This document shows, piece after piece, positions 11,997 to 21,942 of a stretch of 21,942 nucleotides of DNA (positions are counted from its first letter, which is position 1; every line of letters begins with the position of its first letter). The position numbers were made by a program, and so were the translations under genes. The stretch is taken from positions 1-21,942 of IMG/VR virus record IMGVR_UViG_3300011128_000189; one strand, 5' to 3'. A model generated the notes under the pieces. It made no database searches. It was not told the DNA's origin and saw only the letters and a program-made list of their open reading frames with translations. The stretch is from a virus.

Positions 11997-14150
11997 ATGG
12001 CAGATCAACTACAAACATTTGCTGCAGTTTGTGCCGGGGGTCTTGTAACTAATGTTGATCCTATCACACAATCTACTCAAATGCCGGGAAGTGCTATAAG
12101 CCTAATTAATATGGAGCCTTCACTAGAAGGTGGGTACAGACGTATTAGTGGATTTTCTAATGGTTACGGCACAGTTTCTGGCACAGGTAAAATACTTGGT
12201 CTTACTGTTAATGGGGAAATAAAACAAGGTATCTTTGCTACACGTGAGCCTTCTTCTGGAAGCAATTACCTACATTGGTACAATCACTATTACACAGTAG
12301 TAGTAACAGACAATCAATCTGCTAGTTTTACTATAGGTGAAACTGTAACTGCTGTAGTAAGTTCTTCTGATAGCTCTAGTACAGGTATTACTGCTACTGT
12401 TATTTCTAAGACAGCTAACGGATCAGGAAACTCTATAGTATTAAACCTTGGCAGACTACCTTCTTCTGTTTATGCCTCTGGTAATGTTTTAACAGGGGGA
12501 ACATCTACTCACTCAAGTACTGTAGTAGGAACACCTACTGTTATTGGGTGGAATGCAGTAGATAGCTCTTTTGTAGCAAATGATCCAGATGGAGTATGTG
12601 CTACACAAACAACAAGTGGAGCAGCTAATCTTAATTTAAATGGTGCGTTAGCAGACAGTGGGACTATTAACTTTTACACTGCTGCTTCATTACAACCAAG
12701 AAAACTAACTATAACTGGGTTAGTAAGTAATGATAACTCTGGTGTGACCTTTACTATAACAGGTACAGATTCATCTGATGTTGCACAGACAGAAGCTATT
12801 GCTGGTCCTAATGGTGCCGTTACTGTAAGTAGTACAAAGTATTTTAAAACTATTACACAAATAGCTGCAGACGGTGCAGTTACAGGAAACATTACAGCAG
12901 GTTCTGGTGCAGGTGAATATAGACCTACTAACCCTAGCTTTACTGGTATAGACATTGTAAGGTTTTCAAAGCACAACTGGTTTGAAGAAATACTAATACT
13001 TACTGATGGTGTAAATCAAGCCGCTAAATATAATGGTACAGACTACGTAAAGTTATACCATGTAAATGCACCTGCTGCTCCAAAGTTTTCTAGTGCTTTT
13101 GCAAACCATTTGTTTTTAGCTGGGGATTCTACTTACCCTTTTAATTTGTATTTTTCTTCCCCTTTAAATGATACAGACTTTGACCCTGCTAATGGTGCTG
13201 GGGTAATTAATGTAGGCTTTTCTATTACCCAAATTATTGGGTTCCGTAATCAACTATATATCTTTGGTCAAAATTCTATTAAAAGGTTGGTAGGAGATAA
13301 CTACTCTAACTTCTTACTTGAAAATGTTACTAATGACTTAGGTTGCATAGCATCAGATAGTGTGGTAGAATTTGGTGGTGATATTATCTTCTTGGGGCCG
13401 GATGGTATCCGTCCAGTATCAGGTACAAACAGAATTGGTGACGTTGAACTTGAAACTGTTTCCAGAGAAATACAGAAAACTTTTGAAAACTACTCAATCA
13501 ACGAAGATGTAACAAAACTTAAAGCTGTTGTTGTAAGAAGAAAATCACAATTTAGACTATTCTTTGAAGCTAACACTTCTCTTTCTCTTATAGGAGCTAT
13601 CCGTAAAAGCCCCACTGCTCAGTCTACTTTTGAATACAGTCAACTTGTAGGTATAGAAGCTACTGCTGTAGCTAGTGGCTACATAGGACAGTTTGAGTTT
13701 GTACTTCATGGTGATAGTGCGGGTGGGGTACATAGACAAGAAACAGGTAATAATTTTAATGGGTCTGATATTTTAAGTGTTTATCAAACCCCCTATTATT
13801 TTATGGGGGATACAGACATAAGAAAAATATTTTATAAGGTTAAAACTTACCTTAAAACAGAAGGTGAAACAGAAATTTCTTTAGGTATTAATTACAACTT
13901 TGGTGATTCAGAGATAGCTACTCCTTCTAGCTTTACCCTTACAACAGCAGGGGCTGCAGTAACTTTTGATGATCTAGGTACAACTTATGACGAAACAGAT
14001 ATCTATGATGGCAACCCTTCGCCAATAAAAAGCACTTCAATTAGTGGGTCAGGAGATTCAATCTCTATGACTTACGTTACAAATAACACAAGTCCTAGCC
14101 ACACTATTCAAGCGGTTACGGTGACTTACGGATTAGGTGATAGGAGATAA
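11997..14150 (+). CDS. Tail tubular B / stabilization-like protein with inserted domains
   Basis: A 717-residue mostly beta protein that starts 2 bases after the previous stop with no clear ribosome binding site, so it is probably translationally coupled. The core resembles tail-tube B or P22 gp10-type tail proteins: 'SLEGGYRRISGFSNGYG' near the start, and in the second half 'FANHLFLAGDS', 'GFRNQLYIFGQNSIKRL' and 'GCIASDSVVEFGGDIIFLGP' then DGIRPVSG, a propeller-like core. Two Thr/Ser/Gly-rich segments interrupt it: residues about 100-185 (FTIGETVTAVVSSSDSSSTG) and about 231-303, with RKLTITG and TKYFKTITQIAADGAVTGNI. I recall the second as a mobile domain found in diverse marine phage structural proteins. 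The protein most likely extends the tail below the adaptor. Confidence 0.78.
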   Translation: MADQLQTFAAVCAGGLVTNVDPITQSTQMPGSAISLINMEPSLEGGYRRISGFSNGYGTVSGTGKILGLTVNGEIKQGIFATREPSSGSNYLHWYNHYYTVVVTDNQSASFTIGETVTAVVSSSDSSSTGITATVISKTANGSGNSIVLNLGRLPSSVYASGNVLTGGTSTHSSTVVGTPTVIGWNAVDSSFVANDPDGVCATQTTSGAANLNLNGALADSGTINFYTAASLQPRKLTITGLVSNDNSGVTFTITGTDSSDVAQTEAIAGPNGAVTVSSTKYFKTITQIAADGAVTGNITAGSGAGEYRPTNPSFTGIDIVRFSKHNWFEEILILTDGVNQAAKYNGTDYVKLYHVNAPAAPKFSSAFANHLFLAGDSTYPFNLYFSSPLNDTDFDPANGAGVINVGFSITQIIGFRNQLYIFGQNSIKRLVGDNYSNFLLENVTNDLGCIASDSVVEFGGDIIFLGPDGIRPVSGTNRIGDVELETVSREIQKTFENYSINEDVTKLKAVVVRRKSQFRLFFEANTSLSLIGAIRKSPTAQSTFEYSQLVGIEATAVASGYIGQFEFVLHGDSAGGVHRQETGNNFNGSDILSVYQTPYYFMGDTDIRKIFYKVKTYLKTEGETEISLGINYNFGDSEIATPSSFTLTTAGAAVTFDDLGTTYDETDIYDGNPSPIKSTSISGSGDSISMTYVTNNTSPSHTIQAVTVTYGLGDRR

Positions 14151-14153
14151 CAC

Positions 14154-17100
14154 ATGGCAGGTTACGCAAGACAGTCATCGGCAGATATTGTTGCAACAGC
14201 CGTTGTACGTGCGAACCCATTGAATGTAGAGTTTAACGCTTTACGTGATACTTTTGCATTAGCTACAGGACATACACATGATGGATCAGCTACAGAGGGC
14301 GGTTATGTACCTCTTATTGCTGACTCGGACGCACTAAATAAAATAGCTATTGACACTAGTAATAATAGAGTTGGGATATTTGTTGAGGTATCTAGTGCTG
14401 CAGTAGAGCAAATACGTATTCAAGATGGTGCTATTGTTCCTGTAACTGATAGTGATATTGACTTAGGTACATCTACTTTAGAATTTAAAGACTTATTTCT
14501 TGATGGTACTGCACACATAGATACACTTGATGTAGATGCAAATGCTGGTATCATAGGTAATTTAACAGTAAGTGGCAACACCACTCTTGGTGATGCAGCA
14601 TCCGATACAGTCACTGTTACTGCTGATGTAGCTTCACCACTTATTCCTTCTACTGATGACACATATGACCTTGGTGCTAGTGGCTCTGAGTGGCGTAACT
14701 TATACATTGACGGTACTGCTAATATTGATGCACTTGTAGCTGATACTGCAGATATTAATGGTGGTACTGCTGATGGTGTAGTTATAGGTGGCTCTAGTGC
14801 TGCTGCTGGTACATTCACTTCTTTAACTGCTACAGGCACATCTACACTTACTACTGTTGATATTGATGGTGGTGCTATTGATGGTGCTATTATTGGTGCT
14901 AACTCTGCTGCTGCTATTACAGGCACTACTATTACAGGTACATCTCTTGTAGGTGCTGTAACAGGTAATGCTGATACTGCAACTGCACTTGAAACAGCAA
15001 GAAATATTGGCGGTGTTAGCTTTGATGGTACAGCTAATATTAACTTACCGGGTGTTAATACTTCGGGTAATCAAGACACATCAGGTACTGCAGCAAATGC
15101 AACGGTACTTGAAACTGCTAGAACAATCGGTGGTGTTTCCTTTGATGGTAGTGCCAATATTAATCTTTCTGGTGTTAATGCTGCGGGTAATCAAGATACC
15201 TCTGGAAATGCAGCTACGGCTACTACACTTGCAACAGCTAGGACTATTGCGGGGCAATCGTTTAACGGTTCTGCTAATATTACTATTGCTGCTACTGATC
15301 TTTCTGATACTGACCAAAGTCTAGCAACAGGTGACAACGTACAGTTTGCCCAAGTAACAACTACAGCCAATGTTATTGTTGGTGGTGATCTAACAGTCAA
15401 TGGAACTACTACCACTGTTGACACGACTAACATGGTTGTGTCTGATGCACTGATTGAGTTAGGCAATGGTACTACAGGTACACCTGCCAATGATGCTGGT
15501 ATTGTAATTGAACGTGGTGATGCAGCTAATGCATTCATTGGTTATGATGAAAGTGCAGATAAGTTCACTGTAGGTACAGGTACATTTACTGGTGCATCCA
15601 CAGGTAATCTGTCTATCACTACAGGTACTCTTGTTGCCAACATCGAAGGTGACGTAACGGGTGATCTTACAGGTAATGCTGTTACAGCTACAGCCTTAGC
15701 AACTTCACGTACAATTGCTGGTCATTCTTTCGATGGTACAGCTAACATCAGCATTGCTCCTACCGATTTAACTGGGGTTAATAGTACCGCTGCTGAATTA
15801 AACATCATGGCGGGGGGTACGTCAGCCACCAGCACAACTCTCGCAGATGCTGACCGTGTAGTGGTCAATGATGCTGGTACTATGAAGCAAGTCGCACTGA
15901 CTGACTTTGAAACGTACATGGAGACTAGCTTAGATACTCTCAGCAATGTGACTGCAGTCGGGGCATTAAACAGCGGTAGTATTACATCAGGCTTTGGTGC
16001 TATTGATGTTGGTTCTTCTGCTATTACTACTACAGGCACGATGACCTTCGGCTCACTAGCTGATGGCTCTATTACTATTACAGGCTTTGTAGATGAAGAT
16101 GATATGTTATCTAATTCTGCTACTCTTATTCCTACTCAACAGTCTGTTGAAGCACGTATTCAAGCAGTTAATAGTTCATCCAACAACGTAACTGGCCTTA
16201 ATGCTACAGGCGCAGAGATTAACACAGTAGCAGACCCTGTTACGTCTATCGGTACAACAGCCGTAGCTGGTGGCGATGGGATCGTTACGCAGGACACATC
16301 TGACAATGTAATGCTACAGACTACTGTCGATACGTTTGATACCTATCTGTCGCAGACCACCAAGACGCTTACCAATAAGACACTGACTAGCCCAATAGTA
16401 ACTGGGCTGCACCTTAATGACTCAGGCTTCACCGTTGAAGGTTCGGCTGAGGATGGCAATGACACTACAGTAGCCTTCACTAACCCGACTGCCGATAGAA
16501 CAATTACTTTGCCTGATGCTACAGGTAATCTGGCTGTATTTACTACGGCTCCCACGGCTGCAATCACTGACGGTTCATCAGGACAGTTTTTAACAACTGA
16601 TGGCTCTGGTGCATTGAGTTTTGCTACTGCTGGTGGTGGTGGTGCTTCTGCTTCAGATGATTTGTATATTGCCAATCCTAGTTCAGCCACAAACCCTAGT
16701 GCGACAGGGGATAATGCTGTGGCGATTGGTAGTGGATCGGTAGCCTCTGGGTTAAAAACATTTGCAATAGGTACCGACACTGATGCTACTGGGCTTTACA
16801 GCTTTGCTATCGGTCAAGGCGCACAAGCCACAGCAAACTACAACTTAGCTATAGGCTTAAATGCAGTTTCTTCTGGGGAACGGGCAGTTGCTATTGGCAA
16901 CAACTCTGTAACAGCTTCTGCCAGTTGGAGTACAGCAATTGGCAATAACTCTGGCAATGGTGGTTCCAAAGCCGTTACAGGTTCAGGCGCAATGGCCCTC
17001 GGCGGCTCCTACGCATCTGGCACAAATTCCTTCGCAGCAGCTATAGCCGACAACGCAGCAACCTACGGGGCTCTTGGCGCTAACTCTGTGGCGATTGGGT

Positions 17101-17834
17101 ATCGGGCGAAGGCATCAGGTTCTTTTAGTTCAATAGCATTTGGATCGGACGCTGTGTCTAGTGGTCGTGCTTCCATTGCCATTGGAGAAGGGGCAACCGC
17201 TTCCGCAGACAGTGCGGTGTGCTTCGGTGAGGACTCAACTGCATCTGGGGCAAATTCTTCTGTACTAGGTGGATTGGATAATACTGCGAGTGCATTAAGG
17301 TCTGTTGTCCTAAACGGTTATCAGAACACAGCAAGTTATGACTACTCAATCGCCTCTGGCGCAAATTCAAAGTCTGATAAGTGGGCAAAGGTTTCCCATG
17401 CTGGCGGTCAGTTTTCTTCGCAAGGGGATGCCCAAACAGGCACGATGGTTCTCCGTAGCGACACCACAGACGCAACACCTGAAGCATTGACTGCCAACAA
17501 TCTTACCGCTGCTACAACTAACCAAGTCATCCTCCCCAACAACTCTGCTTACAGTTTCAGCGGCACCATCGTAGCCCGTCAGCAAGCGTCAGCAGGCACA
17601 GCCTCTGCAGCATGGAAGGTTGAGGGTCTGATCCGCAGAGAAGGTTCCGCCAGCACAACCGTGTTAGTCAACAGCGCCACTACAGTTTTGGACAATACAC
17701 CTTCATGGGGCATGTCTCTTAGTGCAGATACGACCACAAACGGGGGTGGCCTTAAAATTCAGGTCACAGGCGCAGCGTCAACAAATATCCGCTGGGTAGC
17801 AACAATCAACACTTCTGAAGTCACATACGCTTAA
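14154..17834 (+). CDS. Long tail fibre with YadA-like head repeats
   Basis: A 1226-residue protein, probably trimeric and extracellular on the virion, that contacts the host surface. The N-terminal 60 residues (ARQSSADIVATAVVRANPLN; FALATGHTHDGS) look like the part that attaches to the tail. Residues about 60-270 contain shaft segments such as 'YDLGASGSEWRNLYIDGTA'. Four copies of AR(T/N)I(G/A)GxSFDGxANI lie within about 272-540, a motif frequent in phage fibres. The section around 540-840 has EFT/TNKTLTSP-type segments of known fibre type. Residues about 846-1070 are 'AVAIGSGSVASG' repeats like the YadA adhesin head (left-handed beta-roll). Residues 1070-1226 form a C-terminal domain starting KWAKVSHAGGQFSSQGDAQT. 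The DNA of the last third is visibly richer in G and C at codon third positions than the first half, so it may have been exchanged. Confidence 0.88.
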   Translation: MAGYARQSSADIVATAVVRANPLNVEFNALRDTFALATGHTHDGSATEGGYVPLIADSDALNKIAIDTSNNRVGIFVEVSSAAVEQIRIQDGAIVPVTDSDIDLGTSTLEFKDLFLDGTAHIDTLDVDANAGIIGNLTVSGNTTLGDAASDTVTVTADVASPLIPSTDDTYDLGASGSEWRNLYIDGTANIDALVADTADINGGTADGVVIGGSSAAAGTFTSLTATGTSTLTTVDIDGGAIDGAIIGANSAAAITGTTITGTSLVGAVTGNADTATALETARNIGGVSFDGTANINLPGVNTSGNQDTSGTAANATVLETARTIGGVSFDGSANINLSGVNAAGNQDTSGNAATATTLATARTIAGQSFNGSANITIAATDLSDTDQSLATGDNVQFAQVTTTANVIVGGDLTVNGTTTTVDTTNMVVSDALIELGNGTTGTPANDAGIVIERGDAANAFIGYDESADKFTVGTGTFTGASTGNLSITTGTLVANIEGDVTGDLTGNAVTATALATSRTIAGHSFDGTANISIAPTDLTGVNSTAAELNIMAGGTSATSTTLADADRVVVNDAGTMKQVALTDFETYMETSLDTLSNVTAVGALNSGSITSGFGAIDVGSSAITTTGTMTFGSLADGSITITGFVDEDDMLSNSATLIPTQQSVEARIQAVNSSSNNVTGLNATGAEINTVADPVTSIGTTAVAGGDGIVTQDTSDNVMLQTTVDTFDTYLSQTTKTLTNKTLTSPIVTGLHLNDSGFTVEGSAEDGNDTTVAFTNPTADRTITLPDATGNLAVFTTAPTAAITDGSSGQFLTTDGSGALSFATAGGGGASASDDLYIANPSSATNPSATGDNAVAIGSGSVASGLKTFAIGTDTDATGLYSFAIGQGAQATANYNLAIGLNAVSSGERAVAIGNNSVTASASWSTAIGNNSGNGGSKAVTGSGAMALGGSYASGTNSFAAAIADNAATYGALGANSVAIGYRAKASGSFSSIAFGSDAVSSGRASIAIGEGATASADSAVCFGEDSTASGANSSVLGGLDNTASALRSVVLNGYQNTASYDYSIASGANSKSDKWAKVSHAGGQFSSQGDAQTGTMVLRSDTTDATPEALTANNLTAATTNQVILPNNSAYSFSGTIVARQQASAGTASAAWKVEGLIRREGSASTTVLVNSATTVLDNTPSWGMSLSADTTTNGGGLKIQVTGAASTNIRWVATINTSEVTYA

Positions 17835-18161: not shown

Positions 18162-19322
18162 ATGACTCTTGTAATTGATTACTCAAGTGGTATCTTTGAG
18201 GCAGCACCTTCAGGTGAAACTGTTGGTACTGTTACAGGTAATGCCACTTTAGATTTAACATCCGGTAATCTTTTTAATCATACACCTACTGCTAACACTA
18301 CCTTTGTGTTTAGCAATCCACCTACTACGGGTAGTGCATACGATATGACACTGAAGGTAGTAGGGGCTAACGTTACTGCTGGGTATGGCTTAGCTAATGC
18401 AAGTTACGATAGTGTTAGCTTTAGTGTAAGTGGGCAGGAAAGTATCCCTATTGGGTTGTTTTTTAAGCCTGATGGCACAAAGATGTATGTATCAGGCCCA
18501 AACTCAGACGCCGTTTTTCAATACAGTTTGTCTACAGCTTGGGACCTAAGCACTGCATCTTACGATAGTGTTAGCTTTTCTGTTTCTTCACAGGACTTGA
18601 GTGCTGCAAGCATTTACTTCAAATCAGATGGCACTAAGATGTATTTGGCTGGGTACACTGGTGACAGCGTGTATCAATATACCTTGTCTACTGCATGGGA
18701 CTTGTCAACAGCATCGTATGACAGCGTTAGCTTTTCTGTAGCATCTCAAGCAACCACACCGTTTTCGTTAATATTTAAGCCAGATGGCACTAAAATGTTT
18801 TTAACAGATGGCACAAGTGACGCTGTGAAAGAATATTCATTAAGCACGGCTTGGGACATTTCCACTGCATCATATCAAGCGAGTTTTGGTGTGGCTTCTC
18901 AAGAAACAAACCCTTATGGATTAGAGTTCAATCCAGATGGCACTAAAATGTATATTGTCGGCATTACAACCGATACTGTCTATGAATATGCCCTGTCTAC
19001 CGCTTGGGATATAACGACCGCTTCTTATAGCAGTGTTAGCTTTTCTGTAGCTTCGCAATCTTCGCAACCAGCTCCCGTTAGTATGAGATTCGGCAACGAT
19101 GGTCAAAAACTTTATGTTTCTGACGCTGGCTCAGACACCATTTACCAATACTCCACAAGCACAACAGCATTAGCAACACTCACATACCCTTCCTCAGTAA
19201 AGTGGGCTGGGGGTACTGCACCATCTGCTCCTGCTAACGGTAACAAGGATGTGTACAACTTCTTCACAATTGATGGCGGCACCACGTACTACGGTTTCCA
19301 AGCAGGAGATGCAATGGCATGA
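18162..19322 (+). CDS. Propeller-repeat receptor-binding protein, copy 1
   Basis: A 386-residue protein. Residues 1-77 are the first half of a fibre-end module (IDYSSGIFEA, VGTVTGNATLDLTSGNLFNH, TPTANTTFVFSNPP). Five repeats of about 52 residues start at 80, 132, 184, 236 and 287; each has ASYDSVSFSV, FKPDGTKMYV and a DxVYQYxLSTAWD segment and looks like one beta-propeller blade. Residues 337-386 (YPSSVKWAGG, DGGTTYYGFQAGDAM) are the second half of the module. As I recall it, the module usually occurs without the repeats, so the propeller seems to be inserted into one of its loops. No catalytic motif is visible. Position after the long fibre suggests a surface receptor-binding role. Its stop overlaps the next start as ATGA. 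Confidence 0.85.
   Translation: MTLVIDYSSGIFEAAPSGETVGTVTGNATLDLTSGNLFNHTPTANTTFVFSNPPTTGSAYDMTLKVVGANVTAGYGLANASYDSVSFSVSGQESIPIGLFFKPDGTKMYVSGPNSDAVFQYSLSTAWDLSTASYDSVSFSVSSQDLSAASIYFKSDGTKMYLAGYTGDSVYQYTLSTAWDLSTASYDSVSFSVASQATTPFSLIFKPDGTKMFLTDGTSDAVKEYSLSTAWDISTASYQASFGVASQETNPYGLEFNPDGTKMYIVGITTDTVYEYALSTAWDITTASYSSVSFSVASQSSQPAPVSMRFGNDGQKLYVSDAGSDTIYQYSTSTTALATLTYPSSVKWAGGTAPSAPANGNKDVYNFFTIDGGTTYYGFQAGDAMA
18362..18424 (+). repeat. 63-base direct repeat, copy A (copy B at 19516-19578)
   Basis: Bases 18362-18424 and 19516-19578 agree at 60 of 63 positions by direct reading. The segment codes for the junction between the fibre-end module and the first propeller repeat in copies 1 and 2. 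It includes the 19-mer TTACGATAGTGTTAGCTTT. Its conservation, while the following repeats have diverged, suggests recent copying or gene conversion. Confidence 0.85.
18399..19154 (+). repeat. Five tandem propeller-like repeats, copy 1
   Basis: Five protein-coding repeats of 153 or 156 bases (starts at residues 80, 132, 184, 236, 287 of the gene). Consensus per repeat is ASYDSVSFSVxSQ, then a turn, FKPDGTKMY, a variable four to five residue loop with G and D, then VYQYxLSTAWDxST. The most variable positions are those right after SxSQ and those after KMY, which would be surface loops on one face of a propeller. This is not a CRISPR array; the repeats lie in frame in a protein. Confidence 0.85.
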
Positions 19323-20470
19323 CTGTGCTTATTGATTATACCAAAGGCTTCTTTGAGACAACAGAAGGCGATACTGTTGGTACAGTTACAGGCAATGCTA
19401 CGTTGGACCTATCGACAGGCTCTGTGTTTAGCCATACGCCTACTGCCAATACCACCTTTGCATTCACCAATCCTGCAGCATCAGGTACATCTTCTAGTGC
19501 AACGTTAAAGCTGACAGGGGCTAACGTTACTGCTGGGTATAACTTAGCTAATGTAAGTTACGATAGTGTTAGCTTTAGCGGGGCAACTCAAAGCTCCGGT
19601 ATGAACACTTTTTCACTTGGTTATGAAGGCAGCCGTTTGTATATGGTTGACAGTACTAATGATACCATCTACCAATATAATCTAACAACTCCTTATGATA
19701 TTTCCACGGCGAGCTACTCAACGAAAAGTTTTTCTGTTGCGACACAAGAAGGTTCCCCTTCGGGAATATATTTTAAACCAGATGGGCAGACTGTTTTTGT
19801 TGGTGGTTATAGCTCTGACACAATATACCAATATAGTCTCAGCACAGCTTGGGATATTTCTTCTGCAAGTTATGCTTCAAAGTCGTTTTCCGTTTCTGCT
19901 CAAGAAACTGTACCAAGAAACTTTTGGGTAAACCCTGCTGGCACAAAGCTATTTTCAGTGGGGCAAACTGGAGACGATGTGAACGAGTATACTCTTTCTT
20001 CTGCATGGGATATTAGCACTGCTTCCTACACGCAAAACTTTAGCGTTGCCGCACAAGATACTACTCCAATTGGAATATATTTTTCACCAGCCGGAGATAA
20101 AATGTTCATTGCTGGTTCGGTTGGAGATTCCGTTTACCAATACACCCTTAGCACGGCCCTTGATATATCTACAGCCTCCTACGACAGCATTGCTTTTAGT
20201 ATTTCTGGGCAAGATAATTCGCCCATTGGCGTTGCTTTCAATGGCACCGGCTCCAAGATGTATGTCGTAGGCGCTACTAGCGACACCGTCTACCAATACT
20301 CCATAAACACAACAGCATTAGCAACAATAACTTACCCTTCCTCTGTTATTTGGTCAGGTGGCACAACACCAACAGCACCTGCCAATGGTGAGACTGATGT
20401 GTACTCATTCTATACGGACGATGGCGGTACAACATATTACGGATTTGTATCAGGAGATGCTTTAGCATGA
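19319..20470 (+). CDS. Propeller-repeat receptor-binding protein, copy 2
   Basis: A 383-residue paralogue of the preceding protein, beginning at the ATGA overlap (19319-19322). It has the same order: N-terminal half-module (IDYTKGFFETTEGDTVGTVT, TPTANTTFAFTNPA), five repeats starting at 79, 131, 183, 235 and 286, then the half-module NTTALATITYPSSVIWSGG and DGGTTYYGFVSGDALA. Repeat spacing (52, 52, 52, 51) equals that of copy 1, so the whole gene was probably duplicated. Individual repeats have diverged clearly, and the first and fourth differ most from the consensus (SVSFSGATQSSGMN). The terminal module parts are the most conserved. No ribosome binding site is needed if translation is coupled. 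Its stop overlaps the next start in the same ATGA fashion. Confidence 0.85.
   Translation: MTVLIDYTKGFFETTEGDTVGTVTGNATLDLSTGSVFSHTPTANTTFAFTNPAASGTSSSATLKLTGANVTAGYNLANVSYDSVSFSGATQSSGMNTFSLGYEGSRLYMVDSTNDTIYQYNLTTPYDISTASYSTKSFSVATQEGSPSGIYFKPDGQTVFVGGYSSDTIYQYSLSTAWDISSASYASKSFSVSAQETVPRNFWVNPAGTKLFSVGQTGDDVNEYTLSSAWDISTASYTQNFSVAAQDTTPIGIYFSPAGDKMFIAGSVGDSVYQYTLSTALDISTASYDSIAFSISGQDNSPIGVAFNGTGSKMYVVGATSDTVYQYSINTTALATITYPSSVIWSGGTTPTAPANGETDVYSFYTDDGGTTYYGFVSGDALA
19516..19578 (+). repeat. 63-base direct repeat, copy B
   Basis: Second copy of the 18362-18424 segment, with three substitutions visible (two adjacent in the Tyr-Gly/Asn region, and one in the Ala/Val codon before SYDSVSF). 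It spans the same module-propeller junction in the second paralogue. Confidence 0.85.
19553..20305 (+). repeat. Five tandem propeller-like repeats, copy 2
   Basis: Five in-frame repeats in the second paralogue with the same 52/52/52/51-residue spacing as in copy 1. The DxxYQYxLSTAWDIS part is kept in most repeats, while the segment between SQ and the FKPDGT motif varies. The repeats do not copy copy-1 repeats one by one at the DNA level, so they are older than the junction segments or have been selected to change. Confidence 0.82.
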
Positions 20471-21942
20471 GTGTATCAATAGACTATACTGGCGGTGTAT
20501 TCCAAGCCAACAAAGCCAAGAGTGTTGGTACAATTACGGCTGGCACCGGAACGTACAACCTTGCTGTTGCGAGTTATGATAGTGTTAGTTTTAGTGTGGC
20601 TTCTCAGGAGGCTAATCCGTTTGGTATGTTTTTTAAGCCAGATGGCACTGCTTTATATTTATGTGGCACTAGTGGCGATGATGTAAATGAATATTCTTTG
20701 TCTTCTGCATGGGATATTAGCACAATGAGTTTTGTACAAAACTTTAGTGTTTCATCACAAGAAACCGTGCCAACATGTATTTTCTTTAAGAACGATGGAA
20801 CTAAGATGTTTATAGCAGGGCAAGGGTCAGATGCTATAAATGAATATACTCTTTCTACTGCATGGAATGTTTCAACTGCTTCTTATACGCAAAACTTTAG
20901 TATTTCCTCACAAGAGGCGGCAGTTAGAGGTTTATTCTTTAAAGGTGATGGAACTAAGATATATGTAGCTGGCACTTCTGGTGATGATGTAAACGAATAC
21001 AATCTAAGCACAGCTTGGGATATATCTACTGCATCATTTAATCAGGTTTCTTCATCTATCTCATCTCAAGTAGCAAGTGTAGCGAGTTTGTATTTTTCAC
21101 CAGACGGTGGTTATTTTTATGTGACAGACGATTATAATAATGATGTTTCTGAATATTCTCTATCAACTGCTTGGGACGTAAGCGCTATATCTTATGTACA
21201 AAACTTCAGTGTCTACTCAGAGGGAACTAATGTTACAGGTTTATCTTTTAAATCTGATGGTTCAAAGATGTATGTACTTAATCGCACTAACGACACCATT
21301 TATCAATACAGCACAGGCACAGCTACAAGCCTAGACATCTCCAGCGGCACATACTTCAACTACACGCCATCAGTCAACACCACGTTTACTTTTGGTAATG
21401 CACCAGCATCTGGCACGGCGGCTGGCTTTGCTTTGGCACTTACTGGTGGTAATGCGGCTGCGGTATATGACATTGCTAATGCAAGTTACGATAGTGTTAG
21501 CTTTAGTGTGGCTTCTCAGGATGGTGTACCTGTAGGTATTACCTTCAAACCTGATGGCACATCTATGTTTATTACTGGCAATGGTAATGACAATGTGTAC
21601 CAGTACACACTTAGCACGGCTTGGGATGCCTCAACTGCTTCTTATGCATCCAAAAGTTTCAGTGTGGCTACTCAGGAAACTGCTGTTTCTGGGTCTGCGT
21701 TTAAGCCTGATGGCACTTTGTTATACGTTTGTGGGTCGGGAACAGACAGTGTTTTTCAATACACACTAAGCACAGCTTGGGATATTTCCACTGCCTCTTA
21801 TGCATCTAAAAGTTTTAGCTTCAGTACACAAGATAACGTTGTTACTGGAGTAGCCTTTAATGATGACGGTACTAAAATGTATATTTCAGGAAGTGGTAAC
21901 GACACAATATTTCAATACAGTTTAAGCACAGCTTGGGATATT
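20467..21942 (+). CDS. Propeller-repeat protein, copy 3, runs off the window
   Basis: It begins at the ATGA overlap (20467-20470) and stays open for 492 codons to the right edge, so the 3' end is missing. The start MSVSIDYTGGVFQ and SVGTITAGTG align with the module's beginning in copies 1 and 2. Then five repeats start at 35, 87, 138, 189 and 241. The interrupted module resumes as SLDISSGTYFNYTPSVNTTF and FGNAPASGTAAG (288-320), followed by a second set of repeats at 339, 391 and 443, cut by the edge. Thus a propeller sits at an earlier loop of the module than in copies 1 and 2, and a second one at the usual loop. If the pattern holds, the missing part holds about two more repeats and the YPSSVKW/DGGTTYYGF ending. 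Confidence 0.85.
   Translation, partial: MSVSIDYTGGVFQANKAKSVGTITAGTGTYNLAVASYDSVSFSVASQEANPFGMFFKPDGTALYLCGTSGDDVNEYSLSSAWDISTMSFVQNFSVSSQETVPTCIFFKNDGTKMFIAGQGSDAINEYTLSTAWNVSTASYTQNFSISSQEAAVRGLFFKGDGTKIYVAGTSGDDVNEYNLSTAWDISTASFNQVSSSISSQVASVASLYFSPDGGYFYVTDDYNNDVSEYSLSTAWDVSAISYVQNFSVYSEGTNVTGLSFKSDGSKMYVLNRTNDTIYQYSTGTATSLDISSGTYFNYTPSVNTTFTFGNAPASGTAAGFALALTGGNAAAVYDIANASYDSVSFSVASQDGVPVGITFKPDGTSMFITGNGNDNVYQYTLSTAWDASTASYASKSFSVATQETAVSGSAFKPDGTLLYVCGSGTDSVFQYTLSTAWDISTASYASKSFSFSTQDNVVTGVAFNDDGTKMYISGSGNDTIFQYSLSTAWDI
20569..21942 (+). repeat. Two sets of propeller-like repeats in copy 3
   Basis: Five repeats (residues 35-283) then at least three more (339-492), separated by about 55 residues of the fibre-end module. 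The first set is partly of another subtype, with NEYSLSSAWD/NEYTLSTAWN instead of YQY and FVQNFSVSSQ or YTQNFSISSQ instead of YDSVSFSV. The second set returns to the YDSVSFSVASQ and VYQYTLSTAWD subtype. TTACGATAGTGTTAGCTTT occurs at the start of the second set (21486-21504). Confidence 0.82.

Follow-up and report, generated by a model that had tools for sequence, protein, structure and literature searches.

We describe here three tandem genes at the end of a 21,942-nucleotide stretch of viral DNA (positions 1 to 21,942 of the IMG/VR record IMGVR_UViG_3300011128_000189, hereafter the window) that probably code for tail-fibre tip proteins. Their common core would be a single beta domain of ~100 residues, here called the chassis, preceded by a short N-terminal arm, and two turns of this domain would act as sockets, one after a GTxTG motif (socket A) and the other after LxVTG (socket B). 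A self-contained domain with adjacent ends could be carried in either of them leaving the chassis unbroken. In the window this cassette would be a five-bladed beta-propeller, and in other phages a LamG/concanavalin-like domain, a DUF7483 domain, two propellers in a row or nothing. We regard the explanation as a whole, a two-socket chassis with exchangeable cassettes in fibre-tip proteins, as likely. A wider proposal, that marine phages share a pool of binding cassettes of unrelated folds that recombine into either socket of several chassis genes per genome, is one towards which we lean only slightly. The genes and their parts are as follows.

18162 to 19322, plus strand: copy 1, chassis (scaffold) gene of 386 amino acids with a five-blade cassette in loop (socket) B.
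18162 to 18386, plus strand: N half of the copy 1 chassis (N part and middle segment), 87.4% identical in nucleotides over 198 bases to the empty orthologue L009:66-425.
18387 to 19163, plus strand: putative propeller cassette of copy 1 in loop B, five repeats (residues 80-334) by the repeat profile.
19164 to 19319, plus strand: C half of the copy 1 chassis, 89.3% identical in nucleotides to the empty orthologue L009.
19319 to 20470, plus strand: copy 2, chassis gene of 383 amino acids with a five-blade cassette in loop B.
19553 to 20311, plus strand: putative propeller cassette of copy 2 in loop B, five repeats by the repeat profile.
20467 to 21942 (cut by the window end), plus strand: copy 3, chassis gene with cassettes in loops A and B; its full form of 644 amino acids is L002:8306-10237.
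20467 to 20553, plus strand: N part of the copy 3 chassis up to loop A, 95.7% identical in nucleotides over 70 bases to the empty orthologue L018:8300-8653.
20554 to 21318, plus strand: first putative propeller cassette of copy 3, in loop A, five repeats by the repeat profile, modelled at pLDDT (predicted local distance difference test) 80-98 in 10-residue blocks.
21319 to 21465, plus strand: middle segment of the copy 3 chassis.
21466 to 21942, plus strand: second cassette of copy 3, in loop B, first three of five repeats with the third two residues short, the remainder lying beyond the window.

Copy 1 overlaps copy 2 by 4 bases, and copy 2 overlaps copy 3 by as many. The record runs 455 bases past the window and has two Ns just beyond its end (L001:3944-3945), probably an assembly join, at which the frame of copy 3 is lost. 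Contig L002 (IMGVR_UViG_3300011258_000121) encodes copy 1 at 100% identity and carries the array uninterrupted, with copy 1, copy 2, a 644-residue copy 3, a 278-residue copy 4 and, after these, a gene whose product has a tail assembly chaperone domain (PF16778). The order within the full copy 3 is N part, five repeats, middle segment, five repeats and C half. Copy 4 (L002:10237-11070, outside the window) is made of the leader MSIARLMQMAAARGG and five repeats and has no chassis segments; solo propellers resembling it come after chassis genes in other arrays.

With a profile built from four repeats of copies 1 and 3 as seeds, we found a five-repeat block in copy 1 (residues 80-334, 48-110 bits), in copy 2 (residues 80-331, 38-80 bits) and in copy 4, and two such blocks, at 35-287 and 339-590, in full-length copy 3 (37-109 bits); the matches in copies 1 to 3 are far above chance level. 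The repeats are 51-52 residues long and the final one of every block is shorter; by eye, the YxLAN residues directly before the block look like the missing end of the last repeat. A sequence-only reading of the window had described copies 1 and 2 as half-modules split by five repeats of about 52 residues, and copy 3 as carrying one block at an earlier site of the module, between GTITAGTG and SLDISSG, and a second one beginning at the usual position. All of this was confirmed, the first block of copy 3 having five repeats, and L002 shows that the second also has five, followed by the usual C half. Among 183 blocks found in 145 unique complete open reading frames (ORFs), 152 had five repeats, 20 had ten and 11 some other number. 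The odd counts include two blocks in adjacent ORFs of L035, with 2 and 3 repeats, and blocks of divergent sequence in L040 (one) and L003 (two). In L029:6001-7920 and similar proteins a single socket B holds two consecutive five-repeat blocks joined by only a short linker.

An AlphaFold2 model of the full copy 3, built with 25 relatives (mean pLDDT 84.4), has twenty strands in each block, four per repeat, with pLDDT values of 80-98 in the first block and mostly 90-98 in the second. Foldseek placed repetitive and tandem propellers among the top matches of this model. With VIA-align the first block (model residues 31-283) matched 3qqz, which we take to be a five-bladed propeller, in first place (Z 23.7, root-mean-square deviation (rmsd) 2.7, 229 of 243 residues aligned), the runner-up having a Z of 16.6. 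The grouping of the repeats by five and the match to a compact solved structure make the blocks look like propellers and not like a solenoid, which agrees with the separate propellers of the sequence-only reading. Tandem repeats of near-constant length might also form one continuous solenoid running through the protein, but multiples of five in 172 of the 183 blocks, the compact match to a solved domain of 243 residues and the unrelated middle segment that separates the two blocks of copy 3 make this hardly credible; repeat counts, strand model and the structural match to 3qqz led us to reject it.

The Pfam Lactonase (PF10282; 36, 29 and 53.2 bits in copies 1 to 3, cut-off 21.7) and SGL profiles were above their cut-offs in all three copies, which is consistent with a propeller. 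The Lactonase family is seven-bladed, and membership in it was rejected on the five repeats per block. These matches, together with the fact that propellers are common in enzymes, could also suggest that the inserts are enzymes, for instance lactonases or polysaccharide-cleaving propellers, instead of binding heads. We consider this improbable, since the best SGL stretches cover ~30 residues, the blade number is that of another propeller class than the Lactonase family, and the same sockets hold LamG and DUF7483, which are unrelated families.

A search with the joined halves of copy 2 retrieved contiguous insert-free proteins, mostly 117-120 residues long over the module, in keeping with the earlier suggestion that the module occurs in marine phages without any repeats. 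One of them, L009:66-425, was modelled with 32 relatives (mean pLDDT 84.9, predicted template modelling score 0.76, pLDDT ~90 over residues 21-120). In this model the three residues of site A (26-28) separate strand 23-25 from strand 29-31, and site B (67-73) comes directly after a long strand (60-66). A single domain is predicted for the empty form, with both sites resembling hairpin turns if the strands pair as the model suggests; by homology with the empty form, the chassis would also close around inserted propellers. The Pfam search of the L009 protein gave 0 families. Nine solved structures matched the empty chassis with Z >= 5 (best 7.0), and eight of the nine are phage spike or baseplate proteins, the ninth being a chaperone-substrate complex (6o38, Z 6.2, rmsd 4.7, 106 residues aligned); the best Foldseek match to solved structures had an E value of 0.0011. 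The neighbours include Solidus gp83 (24qj), the Pa223 capsid spike (9ny6), CBA120 TSP4 (7rej; Z 5.7, rmsd 4.6, 96 aligned) and T4 gp9 (1qex; Z 5.6, rmsd 3.5, 89 aligned), and the Z values of these four spike or adaptor domains (5.6-7.0, rmsd 3.0-4.6, 89-96 residues aligned) are too low for kinship, for which the level is Z 8. We know of no exchangeable inserts in those phage domains. Among the predicted viral proteins of BFVD there were 182 chassis-like matches at E <= 0.001; 8 of the 50 listed are named fibre or tail fibre and most of the others have no informative name.

Cassettes are replaced as whole units on a near-constant chassis. Copy 1 and its counterpart in L018 are 95.3% identical over the first 213 bases and 90% over the last 140 bases, with only 58.7% in the propeller, and copy 2 and its own L018 counterpart have chassis segments at 95.3% and 95.0% and a propeller at 57.7%. 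This pattern was examined in pairs of socket-B proteins whose two chassis segments each reach 90% nucleotide identity, after dropping pairs with chassis below 80% in amino acids. In 34 of the 39 pairs (31 proteins in 9 clusters) the propellers were 48.7-63.3% identical, in the other 5 they were at least 90% identical, and no pair fell at 70-90%. Conserved residues use the same codon in a median of 46% of cases in the propeller, versus 92% and 86% in the two chassis segments. Since codons differ even at conserved residues, the propeller has been exchanged and not mutated in place, and in-place hypermutation was rejected on these codons. The junctions were profiled in 42 pairs, including duplicate contigs, 36 of which could be used at the 5' side. 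There the mean identity is 84.6% over the five codons that open repeat 1 and has dropped to 53.1% at a depth of ten codons. At the 3' side it climbs from 42.9% to 75-79% within the ten codons that precede the C segment and is 94.1% where this segment starts.

The alternative is that propellers diversify where they are, by fast mutation and selection or by a diversity-generating retroelement. The loops of one propeller face and strand a are the most variable parts, as might be expected of selected binding surfaces. We nevertheless find diversification in place very unlikely given the codon comparison, the empty range between 70 and 90% and the near-identical cassettes found on different chassis and in different sockets; in addition, no reverse transcriptase (PF00078) was found in 7 records, all of them possibly fragments.

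These displaced cassettes argue further for exchange of whole units. The cassette that L010:2796-4718 carries in loop A recurs, at 92.8% identity over 760 bases, in loop B of L019:2985-4913, and the middle and C segments of the same two genes are at 92.3% and 96.4%. The loop B cassettes of L003:422-1570 and of the gene that starts at L088:4496 share 95.0% over 807 bases on chassis segments that are only ~60% identical. Altogether 43 propeller pairs reached at least 68% protein identity and 30 of them were flagged for a difference in context, some by an uncertain label alone. Two are clear pairs of a loop A and a loop B cassette (L010/L019 and L013/L017, the latter at 75.2% in nucleotides) and seven are loop B pairs on chassis less than 80% alike, one of them borderline (79.5%). 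In a tree of 189 propellers the loop A and B labels intermix, with 33 changes, and 90 of the 186 inner branches are open (support below 80); against shuffled labels, A was more clustered (0 of 500 shuffles as low) and B hardly so (42 of 500). Concerted evolution within an array was not seen, mean identity being 49.7% within contigs (158 pairs) and 48.4% between them (17608 pairs).

To see what the sockets carry in relatives we counted 186 unique complete proteins with both chassis segments, from 57 loci, leaving out truncated ORFs and 17 loci that duplicate another contig (before this removal there were 212 proteins and 73 loci). Given as contents of sockets A and B, the states were empty/empty (45), propeller/propeller (34), empty/propeller (33), long N-terminal part/empty (21), propeller/empty (16), LamG/empty (10), empty/two propellers (9), long/two propellers (6), long/propeller (5), empty/DUF7483 (3), LamG/propeller (2) and DUF7483/empty (2). 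The LamG and DUF7483 states come from short sequence patterns, checked with Pfam in five proteins. Laminin_G_3 was found in socket A of two proteins at 47.8 and 58.3 bits (cut-off 27.6) and of a third one, with a propeller in its socket B, at 76.5 bits, and DUF7483 was confirmed in one protein for each socket. A further insert of ~180 residues was seen at socket A of L072:5365-7095 (residues ~30-215), which has a propeller block in socket B; the Pfam search of this insert gave no match. The 28 contigs with at least three complete chassis genes show 18 different combinations. In arrays with similar N termini the cassettes run B, B, A+B in L002; empty, B, A+B in L009; LamG, LamG, A+B in L010; and B, B, empty in L018. 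Clades of close chassis, starred on the chassis tree, mix states, that of copy 1 having two loop-B propellers, two empty proteins and two LamG in its six rows.

The search has thus returned the module with cassettes in loop B only, in loop A only, in both and in neither, the range of forms that the sequence-only reading had suggested looking for. Its further claim, that a cassette can be inserted into different loops, agrees with the near-identical cassettes that two genes carry, one in loop A and the other in loop B. The plug-in reading is supported, and goes further than first proposed in that two other folds, LamG and DUF7483, use the propeller sites as well.

Several points weigh against this reading. 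The survey was seeded with propeller-bearing queries and, because the first search used copy 1, the state frequencies are biased towards propellers. Insert states are in part inherited: on a tree of 180 chassis the 12 insert states need 52 changes and all of 200 shuffles needed more (mean 117.5), the chassis trees being built on 86 columns. The idea that homology at the cassette edges guides the exchange is weak, with 56.9% at the 5' edge against 43-45% at other blade starts, and the 3' edge is not more conserved (the later-blade anchors may be off). The window part of copy 3 has no PHROG tail-profile match. Copy 3 and the empty L018 gene are 95.7% identical before site A (70 bases) and 87.0% after site B, and the middle segment, a rough slice, reaches only 66.1%, so that the chassis itself would also recombine or diverge. 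The chassis parts of the full copy 3 model have pLDDT values of 32-67 in 10-residue blocks. The idea that the half-modules form one domain, also present in the sequence-only reading, is borne out by the prediction for the empty form and is less certain for copy 3. The strand pairing at the sockets, the closure of the rings and the direction of the sockets are all things that we infer from models. Blade strand a is as variable as the top loops (mean entropy 2.40 bits), and the variable positions are thus not confined to the top face.

Finally, the N part before socket A adds to the chassis only one strand of three residues (23-25), and site A could for this reason be called a domain border. In that case only site B would be a loop insertion, and the propeller or LamG of site A an N-terminal domain placed between a leader peptide and the chassis. 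Residues 1-20 were modelled at pLDDT 55-60, and chassis domains that end long fibres have other sequence before site A, both in line with this alternative. We hold it to be unlikely, although less so than the other alternatives, since the segment before site A is kept where the insert is absent, and is even the best kept of the three in the copy 3/L018 comparison; residues 21-30 have a mean pLDDT of 89 with strands 23-25 and 29-31 only three residues apart; and genes that are nearly identical carry nearly identical cassettes at the one site or the other.

Regarding the function of a chassis with two sockets, entropy was calculated from 276 repeats aligned without gaps at all 52 positions. The top-face loops (10-16 and 34-37) had a mean entropy of 2.41 bits versus 0.99 for those of the bottom (23-27 and 45-52; Mann-Whitney p = 0.0007), the assignment to top and bottom being what we take to be the usual propeller naming applied to the strands of the model. 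The cassette is joined to the chassis at the edges of the first and last blades, beside the conserved bottom loops, and so the variable face should point away. Upstream of copy 1 lie a 100-residue protein with no profile hits and one of 1226 residues (14154-17834) that has YadA head repeats and tail-fibre PHROG hits; copies 1 and 2 match the PHROG tail-fibre profiles 7760 and 9017. With this tail-fibre context and the chaperone gene that follows the array in L002, the simplest reading is that of fibre-tip proteins with exchangeable binding heads. The propellers would be closed rings whose variable top face, away from the chassis, may bind the cell surface, and the exchange of cassettes, for which we assume general recombination as the route, would change or add receptor specificities. 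The tips may be trimeric like known phage spike domains. Receptor binding by the cassettes, the trimeric state and the position in the virion are all proposals. A 717-residue protein (11997-14150) lies between tail genes; its sole PHROG match is phrog_5107 'amidase', a label that is doubtful given this position.

If the shared pool exists, it would be a combinatorial and mutation-independent way of diversifying host recognition, by plug-in of whole domains at two sites, comparable in role to diversity-generating retroelements. One small domain would have two insertion points that between them take at least three unrelated domain families, with near-identical cassettes in both. If the cassettes bind hosts, those present in a short gene array could tell, and perhaps help to predict, which hosts a marine phage infects. 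Their exchange would account in concrete terms for some of the variability that fibre genes show in marine viromes. Protein design could also profit from the chassis, which would be a naturally occurring domain able to accommodate large nested insertions.

Related propellers are found in other settings. Lentibacter phage vB_LenP_ICBM2, a cultured phage (MF431616), has a protein annotated as hypothetical (AYP28110) with one five-repeat block, 50% identical to copy 1, whose gene sits between tail assembly chaperone genes. The block seems to be in socket B of a divergent chassis, which scores below the cut-off of our chassis profiles (hhalign with the joined flanks gave a probability of 89% and E 2e-6). 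The available part of the ICBM2 paper describes a variable tail-fibre region and does not use the word propeller (PMC6775973). Another cultured phage, Roseobacter phage CRP-9, has in gp42 (L162:12891-16613, annotated as hypothetical) 1241 residues with 15 detected repeats, and the profiles detected no chassis segments in it. Proteins of ~700 residues with the copy 1 type of repeat, mostly four or five detected copies near the N terminus, were also seen in SAR11 (Pelagibacteraceae) genomes (L271:3899-5998, L288:3884-6040 and others in L271-L313). A related propeller is probably displayed on SAR11 cells, because the two repeat proteins checked have an autotransporter beta-domain (PF03797). Among the ORFs with at least three repeats in 59 genome loci, only the one in L263 also has chassis segments.

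YjiK, whose C-terminal domain (3qqz) was the structure matched best by the loop A cassette of copy 3, is a cellular protein and only 12% identical. Among phage proteins, Gp45 of Staphylococcus phage phi11 is, according to the part of its description available, a receptor-binding trimer with a five-bladed propeller per monomer, closed by its own N-terminal strand and with a cavity that could hold sugar (PMC4901313). The likeness is one of description, and the absence of Gp45 among the matches listed for the cassette excludes nothing. Its propeller is one domain between stem and tower, whereas in the window proteins the propeller would be an exchangeable insert in turns of the chassis, in one or two sockets and in gene arrays. 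Recognition genes of marine phages are already known to vary fast in metaviromic islands, some of them hardly wider than a protein domain (PMC3909814); the words propeller, concanavalin and laminin are absent from that text, and its available part describes neither a socket domain nor cassette exchange. The fibres of extracellular contractile injection systems show much domain swapping, some propellers and one class with an inserted domain, with no two-socket domain in the accessible part of the catalogue (PMC12923769). Neither these papers nor PMC10743442 and PMC8528129, as far as their accessible text goes, nor the other openly licensed literature that was searched described a domain whose two sockets take unrelated folds. 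Modular receptor-binding proteins of phages are already known, and the two-socket chassis with exchangeable inserts is a variant of these.

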